Source: a virus. Taken from it: DNA of 38,444 nt. The stretch is from positions 1 through 38,444 of IMG/VR virus record IMGVR_UViG_3300036944_000501; one strand, 5' to 3'. The position numbers and the translations under genes were made by a program. Of the stretch, positions 21,766 through 27,777 are shown piece after piece; position 1 is the first letter of the stretch, and every line of letters begins with the position of its first letter. Under the pieces are notes generated by a model. That model did no database searches. It was not told the DNA's origin and was given only the letters and a program-made list of their open reading frames with translations.

Positions 21766-22497
21766 CTAGACAGCACCGAAAGCCGGGATCACCAGCTTGG
21801 TTCGGCTGGGCTGCACGGTGGCGAACCTCAGCATCATCATTGCGTATCGGGACGCCGAAATACGGTCGTCCTTGAGCTTCACGATCAGGCCGTCCTTGCG
21901 GTGATACAGCCTGAACTCTTGCAGCCAGCCGCCGCAGGTCTCGAACACCTTCCAGCGTCCGGTCTGCATCCGGTCCAGCATCTCCATGACGCCGGCCTCG
22001 ACCCCGTTCCCACCATCAGGGAAGGTCGCCTTCTCGGGGAGCATCTTGAGGCCTTGGGTGCGGTATTGCTCCGCGAGCTGCTCGCCCGAGCCCTTGTCGT
22101 GCTGGAGTCCGTCATGCGGCCAAGAGCATGGGATCCAGTCGCCCCAAGGCTTGATGCCGGCTGAGTGAACGACCGGGGTGGATTCACGCGCTGCGTATTC
22201 CTTGCAGACGTAGATGCAGTCCGCGTCCCGGTCCCAAGCTAGGTTGACGGCGCCGAATGGGTGATCCCACCCGAAGTCCACGCCGTTGATCTGTGGCCAG
22301 TGCGACGGGATCGCGAACGGCTTGACTGTGATGTCCTCTTCCGGGATCGGGAACACCCGACCGGAGCCCATGGAGGGTATGCCTTTGACCCGCGCCTCGC
22401 GTTCGTGCGCCGGGTAGCTGGCTATGATCTCTGCCCGCTGCTCGGGCGTGTAGTGCTCCGCGTCCTCGATGGTCATCTGCACGACGTGCCGGCTCAT
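21766..22497 (-). CDS. terL: Terminase large subunit, nuclease half (split gene)
   Basis: Predicted 243 aa. It continues colinearly from the ATPase half: MTIEDAEHYTPEQRAEIIAS, then GSGRVFPIPEEDI, the first nuclease-motif Asp in GVDFGWDHPFGAVNLAWD (Asp74), a middle PHDGLQHDKGSGEQL acidic/His motif and KDDRISASRYAMMMLRF near the end. In most relatives both halves are one protein of roughly 480 residues. Here ATG 22497 overlaps the stop of the ATPase half as ATGA, in a different frame. No conserved domain seems missing, so the two chains may reassemble. Confidence 0.85.
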   Translation of the reverse strand: MSRHVVQMTIEDAEHYTPEQRAEIIASYPAHEREARVKGIPSMGSGRVFPIPEEDITVKPFAIPSHWPQINGVDFGWDHPFGAVNLAWDRDADCIYVCKEYAARESTPVVHSAGIKPWGDWIPCSWPHDGLQHDKGSGEQLAEQYRTQGLKMLPEKATFPDGGNGVEAGVMEMLDRMQTGRWKVFETCGGWLQEFRLYHRKDGLIVKLKDDRISASRYAMMMLRFATVQPSRTKLVIPAFGAV

Positions 22498-23210
22498 TGG
22501 CTGAGCCCTAGAGCGTCGTTCATCTCCTCGAGGAACATCCCGACTACGTCCGACATCCCCAGCAGGGGCGTGAAGGTGATCATGGAGATGCCGCCCGTCG
22601 CGTTGGTTCGCGTCAGGCCCTCCATGTAGATGTCCATCGGCGGTTCCTCATCGAACCACACGAAGTCGAGCGTCTCGCCCTGCCATTTCTGGCGCCCTTG
22701 GTCGTAGCTCTTGAAGCCGAGTGTCGAGGTTCCGCCGCTCTTGTGCGTCACCGTGACGTTGTCGAGCGCATCCGCGATGCCTTGGCGCCGGCCCCAATCC
22801 TGAAGCGCTTCGCCGGGGATCATCCCCGTTCCCCAGGTGCTTTCCTGCTTGGGCTCCCCGACGAGATAGCGCTGCACCCCGTCGCGAGTGACTTCGCTGG
22901 TCTTCGACCCGGCCCAGCCGCGCACCGGGCGATCCCAGCGGCGACCGCGCCACCAGTCGGGATATTCACCCGTCAAGTGATAGGCCACCTCAGCGGCGCC
23001 GCAGAAGGTCTTGCCGAGTTGGTTGCCCGCCATCAGCAGGCGCTCGCGATGCGTGGACCCGGCGGCGTGGAAATCTCGCTGCTTGGCGTAGGGCCGATAC
23101 TCAGTGAGCCGTCTTCGGTCCTTGCGGCGCTTCGCCTCCTCCAGGAGCGTCAACAACTCCGATTTCAATAAGGCTGGCGAGCTGTCGGATTCGAGTGTCG
23201 AGCTGTTCAT
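22494..23210 (-). CDS. terL: Terminase large subunit, ATPase half (split gene)
   Basis: Predicted 238 aa. Walker A is GNQLGKTF (62-69) after HAAGSTHRERLLMA; Walker B is VWFDEEP (184-190); the coupling region SMITFTPLLGMSDVVGMFLE follows. It powers DNA translocation into the prohead. The N-terminus overlaps the TerS gene by 110 bases, and the family-like LLEEAKRRKDRRRLTEYRP supports the early start. It stops at TGA in the linker between ATPase and nuclease, overlapping the next ORF by 4 bases. Confidence 0.9.
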   Translation of the reverse strand: MNSSTLESDSSPALLKSELLTLLEEAKRRKDRRRLTEYRPYAKQRDFHAAGSTHRERLLMAGNQLGKTFCGAAEVAYHLTGEYPDWWRGRRWDRPVRGWAGSKTSEVTRDGVQRYLVGEPKQESTWGTGMIPGEALQDWGRRQGIADALDNVTVTHKSGGTSTLGFKSYDQGRQKWQGETLDFVWFDEEPPMDIYMEGLTRTNATGGISMITFTPLLGMSDVVGMFLEEMNDALGLSQ

Positions 23211-23496: not shown

Positions 23497-23721
23497 TCAG
23501 TCGAAGGACTGCGGCGCGTGGCACTCGTAGCAATGGAACGAGGCCGAAGTGATATAGAAGGCGAAGCAGCCGCAGGTGCAGGTCCAATTGACCGATCCGA
23601 TTGGCGGCCCTTGGCCATCAAGACCTTCGCGGTTGTGGGTGTCGTCCGCTACCTTGGAGGCGCGTTCGCTGTTGAGGTCGAACAGGCCAGCAGGCCGGAA
23701 GGGAATGACCTCGCCAGACAT
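23497..23721 (-). CDS. Small cysteine-rich zinc-binding protein
   Basis: Predicted 74 aa from ATG 23721, which overlaps the preceding stop (TGATG); GTG 23724 is possible. After an N-terminal SGEVIPFRPAGLFDLNSERA, the C-terminal part WTCTCGCFAFYITSASFHCY plus ECHAP gives CxCxC and CxxC pairs, a small zinc ribbon. Proteins of this form recur in alphaproteobacterial phages with no known function. It lies directly upstream of TerS in the same direction. Confidence 0.65.
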   Translation of the reverse strand: MSGEVIPFRPAGLFDLNSERASKVADDTHNREGLDGQGPPIGSVNWTCTCGCFAFYITSASFHCYECHAPQSFD

Positions 23722-24011
23722 CACAGGCTACCGAAGCGGCCCACGAAGTCGCTGTTCTCGTTGGCGGCGCGACGCACGCGAGCGACGGCCTCTTTCAGGG
23801 CGCCAAGCTCTCCCATCGGGGCAGGGCTTTCGCCGCTGCTGCGTTGGCCTTCGGTCAGGAAGCTTCCCGCCAAACGGCCATAGGTGGCGGCGAAGCTCTC
23901 GTTGACGTTCTCGATAACGCGGGCGATCGCGTGAATCTCATCGGTCGCCTCCGCCACGGCGCCAAGGGTAGGAGGAGCGACTTCGCAGGCTGCGTTGTGA
24001 ATGCTGTGCAT
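23721..24011 (-). CDS. Small helical phage protein of unknown function
   Basis: Predicted 96 aa from ATG 24011, preceded by AAAGGACATCCC (good ribosome site). The frame continues upstream to 24167, but that part overlaps another small ORF and is proline/basic-rich. Body: VAPPTLGAVAEATDEIHAIA, then RVIENVNESFAATYGRLAGS and GELGALKEAVARVRRAANE. Helical, perhaps oligomeric. Unknown role, coupled to the zinc protein downstream. Confidence 0.6.
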   Translation of the reverse strand: MHSIHNAACEVAPPTLGAVAEATDEIHAIARVIENVNESFAATYGRLAGSFLTEGQRSSGESPAPMGELGALKEAVARVRRAANENSDFVGRFGSL

Positions 24012-24028: not shown

Positions 24029-24175
24029 TCAGAACGTCTTCAGCAGCCACCATCCCGTCAGGATCAGGAGCGATCCGAGGGCCTTTGACCATAGGGCTGC
24101 TGTGAGGGTGAGGAGGAGGATCGGGCGCTTGATGGCCTTGCCTCCGCTCCATGAGGTATCGCCCCAAGCGCGCAC
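24029..24175 (-). CDS. Tiny membrane protein
   Basis: A 48-codon frame from GTG 24175 to TGA at 24029; a stop lies four codons upstream of the GTG, so this is the only GTG/ATG start. The product begins MRAWGDTSWSGGKAIKRP and continues with a hydrophobic segment (ILLLTLTAALWSKALGSLLI, then LTGWWLLKTF), predicted to span the membrane once or twice. It ends 17 bases before the next start. The ribosome site is weak. It is supported by membrane-like composition and spacing. Confidence 0.45.
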   Translation of the reverse strand: MRAWGDTSWSGGKAIKRPILLLTLTAALWSKALGSLLILTGWWLLKTF

Positions 24176-24741
24176 TGCGGCTCGGGTTCAGATGCTGAGG
24201 CTGCGTGTCCGCTGCGGCTGGGGCGAAGGGTGCGATGGCCTGGGGGCGCCAGCTTTATGCCCGCAGCTTGCGCCCGATCCTATGGAGACCAAGGCCATCT
24301 GATTGTTGGAGCGGGTCCAGGGACTTTCACCCCAGCGAAGCTAGGAGCAACCCGCGAAATGGTGGCCGGTGTTTCGGCAGACCATGAGCCTGCCTAGTGT
24401 CCCGTTTCGTCTGCCGTCCGATCCCTCTGCGCCTTCACTGGCTTTCAGGGCCAGCGCCACGTTGGATCGGTTCCGCTCCGAGAATCTACAACCGGTCAGC
24501 TTGTCGGAAGCGCCTGTGCCGGAAGAAGCTACTACCAGATGGCGGGGTCTCTGATTTCCCCACATGACGCCCGGCCCGAAGGTCTGGCTACGGCCCAGAG
24601 GTTCACCGTGTCACATCTGAATCAGAAAGGCCCCGCCGAAGCAGAGCCTTACCGTGGCCGCGCGAAGCGACTTTGGCTTTTGTCCCACCTTATCGCGTAC
24701 GCGTCAACCCCTTGTGAGAACAAAAACGGAAACCCGCTAGA
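24176..24741 (-). ncRNA. Candidate structured non-coding RNA between replication and packaging genes
   Basis: 566 bases with no convincing gene. Minus-strand RNA has many strong helices: 10-bp stem 24650-24641/24636-24627 with C(UUCG)G loop; 7-bp 24620-24614/24541-24535 enclosing hairpins 24599-24583 and 24563-24542; 6-bp 24531-24526/24502-24497; 7-bp CCGAUCC/GGAUCGG 24470-24464/24424-24418 enclosing CUGGC/GCCAG; 8-bp CGGCAGAC/GUCUGCCG 24416-24409/24382-24375; and 6-bp GCGGGU/ACCCGC 24355-24350/24316-24311. The first stem pairs completely only on the minus strand. Short frames (24565-24341; 36 codons from 24298) have poor composition or no ribosome site. I match it to no known RNA family. Confidence 0.55.
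24691..24706. promoter_or_regulatory. Palindrome and TTGAC motif upstream of candidate ncRNA
   Basis: Minus strand TTGACGCGTACGCGATAAGG contains the perfect 10-bp palindrome CGCGTACGCG preceded by a TTGAC-type -35-like hexamer. It lies 35-50 bases after the stop of the 202-aa gene and just before the structured region, so it may be a promoter/operator for the ncRNA or the late genes. No good -10 hexamer is visible at 16-18 bases, so confidence is low. Confidence 0.25.
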
Positions 24742-25350
24742 TTATGCGGCTCGGGCCTCCTGCCGCTGCTTCACCAGGACGACCGCGTTCTGCCTGACCC
24801 ACATCAGGCTTTCGCAGGCGACGATCACCCGCTCCCCCTGCCGCTGCGGCGTGGTGGCGGTCGTCACCCGCTTCACCACCTCCCTCCAACGCGTCAGCAG
24901 CGCCTCATCGGGCCGCAGCAGTTCGAACAGCAGCCGGGCCTCCCATGGGCGAAGGCTGGCCTCGACCACCTCCAGCGTGCGGCTGGCCTCGATCATGCGC
25001 TGGGTGACGTTCTGTCCTGGCGCCCCTTCGCATGATGCGCGGATGAAGTCGGGCCGGCGCTCCTGCGTGTTCTCGCCTGAGGCGTCGCGGATAAGCTCCT
25101 CCAGCCAGTTCACGGCGGATCGGGCCTCGGCGTGCGCGTCATCCTTCAGCAGCAGGGAGAAGCAGTCGAGGCGGCGAGCGCGGACGAACACGCGCGTCTT
25201 GCGTTCGTCGTCCTTCTCCTCGACCACCTTGGCCTCTGCTCCCGCTTCCGTCAGGCGCCGAGCCTCCTCGCGGGCCACTCCCCGCTCAATCCGCACCCGC
25301 TCGATGTCGGCGAGAATATCCGCCCTGGTCTTCTGCTTAGCCTTGGCCAT
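24742..25350 (-). CDS. Helical phage protein of unknown function
   Basis: Predicted 202 aa. It has a basic N-terminal coiled coil (ADILADIERVRIERGVAREE), a middle SAVNWLEELIRDASGENTQE and a C-terminal half with LRPWEARLLFELLRPDEALL and TRWREVVKRVTTATTPQRQG. The last part resembles helical DNA-binding domains but shows no diagnostic motif. It is the last gene of the replication block and precedes the gene-poor region. It overlaps its upstream neighbour by 14 bases. Confidence 0.6.
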   Translation of the reverse strand: MAKAKQKTRADILADIERVRIERGVAREEARRLTEAGAEAKVVEEKDDERKTRVFVRARRLDCFSLLLKDDAHAEARSAVNWLEELIRDASGENTQERRPDFIRASCEGAPGQNVTQRMIEASRTLEVVEASLRPWEARLLFELLRPDEALLTRWREVVKRVTTATTPQRQGERVIVACESLMWVRQNAVVLVKQRQEARAA

Positions 25351-27123: not shown

Positions 27124-27777
27124 TCAGGCGGCCATCCCCAGGGTGGAGCGGGCGCGCATGGCCTTGAGCGAGGCCAGACGCTTCTCCGTGCGCTCAATCA
27201 TGTCGTCCAGGCGGCGGGCGCCGAGGGCCAGCTTCATCGACAGGTCGTTGATGTGACGGACCATCTCCGCGTCCGTCTCGATCAGGCTTTCGATCTTGTT
27301 GACGGCGTGGATGACGGTCGTGTGGTCGCGGTCGCCAAAGCGCCGGCCGATGTCAGGGTAGGAGCGGTTCGTGTGCTGCTTGCACAGGTACATGGCGATC
27401 TGACGCGGGCGGGCGATGGCCCTGCCCCGGCTCTCGCAAGTCATGGCGTTGGCGGGCAGATTGAAATGATCGCAGACGACGCCCTGGATCTCGTTGACCG
27501 TGACCCGGCGGCCGATGGTGACCTTGGCCAGTTGCGAGCGCTTCCAGTCATCGGCGCTGACCACCCGAGACACCGGGAACACCCGAACAGGCGGACGGGC
27601 CGAAGAGGGGTGCATGATCCGCAGCAGGTCCATGGGAACGCCCGTGGCGCGCTGCGTGGCCTGATAGGCGCCGGGGTGCTTGACCAGCATCTCAGCGGCC
27701 TTGGCGAGGGCGTATTCGTCGTAGCCACTGCGCGGGGCGGTGGCGAAGGCTCCTGCGCCTGTGAAGGAAAGGCTCAT
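27124..27777 (-). CDS. DnaA domain IV-like DNA-binding protein lacking the ATPase
   Basis: Predicted 217 aa. Residues about 90-170 match the DnaA C-terminal DNA-binding domain: VTVNEIQGVVCDHFNLP, ARPRQIAMYLCKQHTNRSYP and DIGRRFGDRDHTTVIHAVNK, including the RDHTTVIHA DnaA-box-reading signature. No Walker A or AAA+ region is present; the N-terminal 85 residues are unrelated. The tail is a coiled coil (DMIERTEKRLASLKAMRAR). It could bind DnaA boxes on phage or host DNA without ATP switching. It overlaps RusA by ATGA and precedes the replication protein. Confidence 0.85.
   Translation of the reverse strand: MSLSFTGAGAFATAPRSGYDEYALAKAAEMLVKHPGAYQATQRATGVPMDLLRIMHPSSARPPVRVFPVSRVVSADDWKRSQLAKVTIGRRVTVNEIQGVVCDHFNLPANAMTCESRGRAIARPRQIAMYLCKQHTNRSYPDIGRRFGDRDHTTVIHAVNKIESLIETDAEMVRHINDLSMKLALGARRLDDMIERTEKRLASLKAMRARSTLGMAA

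Follow-up and report, generated by a model that had tools for sequence, protein, structure and literature searches.

A modular, structured late leader behind a putative antiterminator gene in a phage genome, with a possible RNA decoy cassette

Layout and boundaries of the non-coding region

The window analysed here is a stretch of viral DNA of 38,444 nucleotides, in which the last gene of the early operon and the first gene of the late operon, both on the minus strand, are separated by a long interval devoid of convincing genes. A preliminary description based on the letters alone had placed a probable large structured RNA at 24176-24741. These boundaries proved too narrow: the non-coding stretch extends from 24741 to approximately 24012, as an internal ATG marks the point from which the downstream ORF can be aligned to its counterpart in the related locus L017. 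The following features are recognized, listed from the early to the late genes.

24742-25350, minus strand: QL gene (202 aa), putative late antiterminator, which ends the early operon
24677-24729, minus strand: putative late promoter region
24656-24674, minus strand: 5' leader hairpin AAAGTCGCTTCGCGCGGCC
24626-24650, minus strand: intrinsic terminator AAGGCTCTGCTTCGGCGGGGCCTTT
24529-24625, minus strand: module or linker of no recognised kind, found in this phage alone, with no homologue in any locus
24355-24528, minus strand: module M, an RNA element with its core at 24524-24473
24418-24470, minus strand: stem S3 of module M, CCGATCC/GGATCGG with an insert
24375-24416, minus strand: stem S4, 8 bp
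24231-24354, minus strand: rest of the variable cassette, for which homologues were sought and none found
24159-24226, minus strand: D5, a near-invariant 68-nt hairpin before the late genes
23721-24011, minus strand: first late ORF, its start taken from the alignment with the L017 ORF; the terminase genes come next

The two closest relatives, L001 (a prophage of Brevundimonas bullata, on the same contig as L017) and L002, both have a 202-aa QL gene and align to the window from that gene through 24617, and then again over 24230-24157, a 74-bp segment that is 100% identical in L001. The middle ~386 bp of the window are represented in L001 and L002 by unrelated stretches of 82 and 127 bp. Variation resumes in the late genes past D5, with Terminase_6 in the window and Terminase_3 in L017. 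The terminase large subunit of the window is encoded by two ORFs with an ATGA overlap inside the Terminase_6N domain (21766-23210, minus strand); the same split occurs in L002 (3039-4483), and is therefore unlikely to be a sequencing error.

The individual pairings noted in the preliminary description can all be located on the minus strand: CCGATCC/GGATCGG at 24470-24464/24424-24418, CGGCAGAC/GTCTGCCG at 24416-24409/24382-24375, a UUCG-capped 10-bp hairpin (24650-24627), and the letters of CTAGG (24397-24393) and CCTAG (24345-24341). That the many strong helices exceed chance as a set is not confirmed: the 574-nt minus strand of the region folds with z = −0.23 (40 of 100 shuffles were equally good) and the plus strand with z = +0.60, such that the stability of the whole region is not exceptional on either strand. 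Single pieces fold better, with z = −2.75 for D5, −3.5 for the 5' hairpin and terminator folded together, and −3.6 and −3.0 for the 7-bp and 8-bp stems, which had been picked after inspection. Since whole-region folding gave no signal, the case for RNA had to be comparative.

The Rfam search suggested earlier returned no match for the window, and the statement that no known family is recognizable stands; at a permissive threshold only an RsmY-like match to the terminator (E = 0.46) and a chance match on the plus strand appeared. Nucleotide searches likewise gave no match, neither in annotated phages and plasmids nor among phages that encode QL proteins. Twelve loci raised by the various searches (L030, L076, L078, L079, L084, L086, L088, L110, L240-L242 and L246) were dismissed as chance or coding matches.

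Promoter, terminator and the putative antiterminator QL

The promoter region combines a −35 element TTGACG (24707-24702), a 17-nt spacer and a −10 region GGGACAAA within 24688-24677; it is kept in L017, L018 and L032, and partly in the group of L007, L022, L023, L026 and L047. Around it stands a near-perfect inverted repeat, CTTTTGTTCTCAC/GTGGGACAAAAG or CTTTTGTTCYCAC/GTGGGACAAAAG (24714-24726 and 24677-24688), which is kept in L017 and L018, with a T in place of the first C in the window; this repeat is a possible operator. The 5' hairpin has equivalents of the GG-stem-CC type in most of 18 other loci, with stem sequences that differ among loci. The hairpin around UUCG is real and kept in relatives (L017, L018, L032, L065, L082), its identity being that of an intrinsic terminator; different terminator hairpins occupy the same place in L042, L045 and L054-L068. 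In most of the loci with QL (38 of them viral) a promoter-like sequence and a short GG-stem-CC hairpin come after the gene, and many of these loci also have a terminator hairpin ending in a run of T. The succession of regulator gene, promoter, terminator and late genes is found in the window and in more than 20 loci, in agreement with the late-control position proposed originally. What survives of the idea of a large non-coding RNA is a minus-strand non-coding region, several hundred bases long, that is made of separate RNA modules and not of one RNA: the gap is very probably a structured late leader of modular build.

The pR'-tR' region of phage lambda consists of a regulator gene, a promoter, a short leader, an intrinsic terminator and the late genes. 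The order of elements is shared with the leader described here, from which lambda differs in two respects: the putative antiterminator QL is of another fold than Q, and a structured RNA cassette lies behind the terminator.

A profile search places QL proteins in 38 viral loci and in the Brevundimonas bullata prophage. Sequence and fold searches revealed no relative of QL in Pfam, PHROG, NCBIfam or PDB, and, in particular, no Q homologue by either sequence or fold in Pfam, PHROG or PDB. With a structure model of pLDDT 88, the best Foldseek match among viral folds is a DUF6456-domain phage protein (prob 1.00, E = 5.6e-3, TM 0.46), and the third is a protein of Rhodobacter phage RcRhea (prob 1.00, E = 2.0e-2). 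At the sequence level the DUF6456 model matches a QL-like ORF in genome G006 with E = 6.4e-4 and 21 bits, under the PF20057 cut-off of 26.3; the window protein itself gives no match to PF20057, and its hhalign alignment to DUF6456 is collinear but weak (probability 2.5%). In two loci, L075 (678-1226) and L109 (79-660), the position of QL is taken by a NusG paralogue.

GafA resembles DnaA in its N-terminal part. The window encodes at 27124-27777 (minus strand) a protein with a DnaA_C domain, a possible counterpart of that part of GafA (GafY); to consider this protein and QL as partners is a guess. Searches with GafA bring up DUF6456 proteins (PMC9638019), while GafZ, akin to GafA in the C-terminal part of the latter, is a demonstrated antiterminator that allows readthrough of terminators and has a putative binding element between −35 and −10 (PMC11150451). 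If QL is a DUF6456-type protein, as the remote sequence link suggests, it would have this in common with GafA of R. capsulatus and with the GafY/GafZ pair of the gene transfer agent in C. crescentus, and the DnaA_C-domain protein of the window would be a second likeness; in contrast to a gene transfer agent, the window represents a complete phage. Position, partner and replacement by a NusG paralogue all point to QL being an antiterminator, an assignment that we consider probable.

Module M, the exchangeable cassette and the D5 hairpin

Homologues of module M occur in 8 loci, L007, L108, L109, L111, L243, L244, L245 and L247, the last seven of which emerged from two pattern scans, for a total of 9 copies including the window. 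The 52-nt core (24524-24473) is 94% identical in L007, and in several copies homology continues past the core up to a GACGAAACGGG-GAGTAG-like block. The core consists of stem S2 and a possible stem S1, whose pairs are all invariant; together the two would form a possible pseudoknot. In the aligned copies 96.3% of the cells in the core helices are paired, against 24-48% when slid, and at one pair of S2 three copies have G-C in place of U-A, while a fourth has U-G. The homologues show covariation, with compensatory changes both in the M core and in D5. Folded alone, the whole of M is no more stable than its shuffles, by a method that cannot model a pseudoknot.

Beyond the core, the arms of stem S3 differ between copies and always pair (CCACC/GGTGG in L111, GTCCA/TGGAC in L109, GTGCC/GGCAC in L245, GAGCCC/GGGCTC in L247). 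For five copies just 1 of 120 arm permutations pairs equally well; when the freedom to choose stems is allowed for, a Fisher estimate gives a combined p of ~0.09, and for this reason S3 is graded as suggestive only. The 8-bp stem S4 is represented in L111 by CGGCAG/CTG(A)CCG at the matching place.

These copies also bear on whether the region encodes a short protein, or is a decayed coding sequence, in the 74-aa frame 24565-24341. In several copies this frame runs open through the M core, with SGTGASDKL-like residues shared among them. The invariant blocks, on the other hand, lie 19, 20 or 21 nt apart, a spacing that breaks the frame in L109 and L244 and from which we conclude that M is not coding; moreover, synonymous positions are almost invariant and stem pairing is kept. 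A coding origin is accordingly very improbable, and the original reading that the gap contains no convincing gene holds in the homologues, in which the frame is not kept.

A terminator precedes M in the window, L109, L243 and L247, and another follows it in L108, L111 and L247; the copies in L111 and L108 each have a promoter-like sequence and a terminator of their own, and in L111 it is alone between the two, near what we read from a neighbouring ORF as the lysis region. With the L111 copy as query, M is absent from annotated phages and plasmids, and 388 host-family genomes yielded chance coding matches only. M has no match in Rfam, and neither M nor the other pieces of the window match any known defence RNA.

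Other phages carry different modules between the terminator and D5. Module D3 (L007, L032, L034, L036, L052, L054, L082) has two stems whose arms, chosen by eye, pair within each phage and worse across phages (permutation p ~0.001 each). In D4, a group of AATCTG-stem hairpins with at most two per phage, pairing is also better within than across phages (p = 0.0008). In a host-family genome (L081, 1501-1569) a D4-like module is seen away from any late leader and next to phage-like genes. L047 and L054 have tRNAs in the cassette; in L022 and L075 the sequences are tRNA-like. The cassette is also optional, since loci L054-L068 mostly have the late genes alone after the promoter-proximal part; many QL loci are without it.

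One occupant of this slot belongs to a known family. The abiF RNA (RF03085) scores above the Rfam curated threshold in the sister phages L007, L026 and L010, directly before D5 and without an AbiF gene; in the window it is not present, no match reaching the gathering score. This RNA is the AbiF antitoxin, which binds the toxin and acts in cis and in trans (PMC12373285). Within the host family it is found in genome G279, immediately before an Abi_2/AbiD gene. At least 120 viral contigs carry a 17-mer from the abiF core; some of these may be chance matches and many contigs are fragments, but most of the 120 show pairing arms. A crude search found an AbiF-like ORF nearby in 2 of 128 abiF-core loci among the matches listed; we take these two to be the G279 chromosome copies L074 and L083, since neither is listed among the loci without such an ORF. 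A Pfam search for Abi_2 in 50 of the listed viral records that carry this core detected none, and the same search was positive in 14 of 199 host-family genomes. At L231, L234 and L236, in host-family genomes, other Abi_2 genes are preceded by other kinds of short hairpin-like sequence.

The cassette is closed by D5, which scores 80.5 bits in the window with the covariance model R1 and is recovered at E < 1e-5 in 13 loci; it has no match in Rfam. A 16-mer from its right-hand block identified a D5 of ~70 bp in L001, L002, L007, L010, L015, L021-L024, L026 and L027 (L015, L024 and L027 being alike around D5), and a pattern from the other half retrieved the identical set minus L001, in which one base differs. 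A genome search added L075 (G163), while L047, L032 and L082 were spotted by eye and then confirmed with R1, L082 being one of the training sequences of the model. In the D5 structure 99.4% of the cells are paired, compared with 33-57% in slid versions; three sequences have C-G where one pair is otherwise G-C, and individual sequences of the group fold at z = −1.5 to −4.6. In L022 (7954-8600) the hairpin is split by a gene for an HNH-type protein (below the Pfam cut-off), and this homing-nuclease-like insert starts with a replacement 3' arm, which pairs with the original 5' arm and so restores the hairpin (fold z = −4.6). The match at 8526-8600 of L022 was rejected as a genuine second D5.

Seven more loci (L034, L036, L037, L041, L043, L046, L052) have at the position of D5 a hairpin with another closing stem, which likely is homologous to D5, though this is not proven: for the types of L034, L036, L041 and L052, which the R1 model misses, the assignment relies on position, a GC-rich closing stem, and ACA(A)CG and AGAGCG-like motifs.

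In more than 10 phage and prophage loci D5 adjoins three kinds of terminase: Terminase_6, Terminase_3 and TerL_ATPase/nuclease enzymes. Its place before terminase genes, and the fact that late modules of different kinds join there, would suit a DNA element kept as such, be it a cos or pac site, a replication origin or a recombination hot spot. The presence of the same D5 before three kinds of terminase argues against a cos site, and the compensatory pair changes in D5 and M also speak against a DNA element; we consider this alternative improbable. The packaging-linked RNA considered in the preliminary description is disfavoured on the same ground, as the conserved block precedes three different terminase kinds.

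Proposed reading of the leader as an antiterminated RNA cassette

These results can be viewed as parts of a single mechanism. RNA polymerase would initiate immediately past the QL gene, from the promoter at 24707-24677, and the transcript would form the short 5' hairpin and normally stop at the terminator at 24650-24626. In the late stage of infection the polymerase would be carried past this point by a processive antiterminator, most likely QL, a putative protein of the DUF6456 type that is also seen in GafA, the activator of a gene transfer agent; that QL antiterminates the late leader is, in our judgment, a good probability. Readthrough would open the packaging and structural genes, and at the same time expose the cassette behind the terminator, with M and further pieces closed by D5. 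The modules, which are accessory and exchangeable, would be made in abundance with the late transcript and would most likely act as RNA decoys or antitoxin mimics against RNA-based abortive-infection systems of the host. We regard this account, as a whole, as evenly balanced between being right and wrong. Given an RNA that neutralises a toxin but comes without that toxin, together with the tRNAs and the mosaic composition, the best single guess is that the cassette consists of RNA decoys, a guess that remains tentative, above all for M; since M and the other pieces of the window match no known defence RNA, and host genomes gave only chance coding hits for M, the decoy reading of this particular window relies on the sister phages. 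D5 is too constant to be a decoy and probably has another role.

A precedent is offered by the pseudo-ToxI of phage PhiTE, a phage-encoded RNA that mimics an antitoxin against abortive infection (PMC3475682). The likeness is one of proposal: here we are dealing with a multi-module cassette in a late leader and with an RNA of the AbiF type, and kinship with a host antitoxin RNA is seen in the sister phages only.

The main rival explanation is that modules and D5 serve solely as cis-acting control RNA, which would modify the polymerase or determine how stable the late mRNA is and how it is processed or translated, and would play no part against host defences. Such a role is consistent with D5 occupying a fixed place where the leader ends, ahead of the late genes, and with the location of M after one terminator or before another. 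A known example is put of phage HK022, a two-stem RNA that modifies the polymerase and causes protein-free antitermination; put lies at the 5' end of its transcript, whereas D5 is at the opposite end of the leader. A purely cis-acting function can hardly account for the exchangeable content, the tRNAs and the abiF antitoxin RNA, nor for the presence of M near the lysis region of L111 and the many QL loci that do without the cassette, and we consider it unlikely.

GOLLD and ROOL are large phage RNAs, often found near tRNAs. A single structural or multimeric ornate RNA of this kind would share with the leader its phage origin, the nearby tRNAs, and a conserved 3' part joined to a variable 5' part. 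The analogy drawn with GOLLD has no sequence support: there is no sequence or Rfam model match to either family, the modules are exchanged independently of each other in a leader that does not form one fold, and M occurs by itself in L111. One large ornate RNA is therefore an improbable explanation.

Returning to the decoy reading, a bolder and rather doubtful generalization is that phages of Caulobacteraceae, and others, keep behind the antiterminated stop of their late operon an exchangeable, RNA-only anti-defence island. With the same reserve one may imagine that orphan abiF RNAs, tRNAs and new families like M each block a different RNA-dependent abortive-infection system.

The layout of the leader and RNA mimicry are of kinds already known; the cassette, M, D5 and the orphan abiF RNAs in phages appear to be new within the libraries and papers searched. 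M and D5 provide two RNA elements without Rfam match at a predictable place in phage genomes, and the link between QL and DUF6456 suggests an origin for the late regulator of gene transfer agents. If the cassette is directed against host defences, its slot would offer a route to RNA-based defence systems through the decoys of phages, and the orphan abiF RNAs in ~100 or more viral contigs would constitute a large set of candidate AbiF inhibitors.
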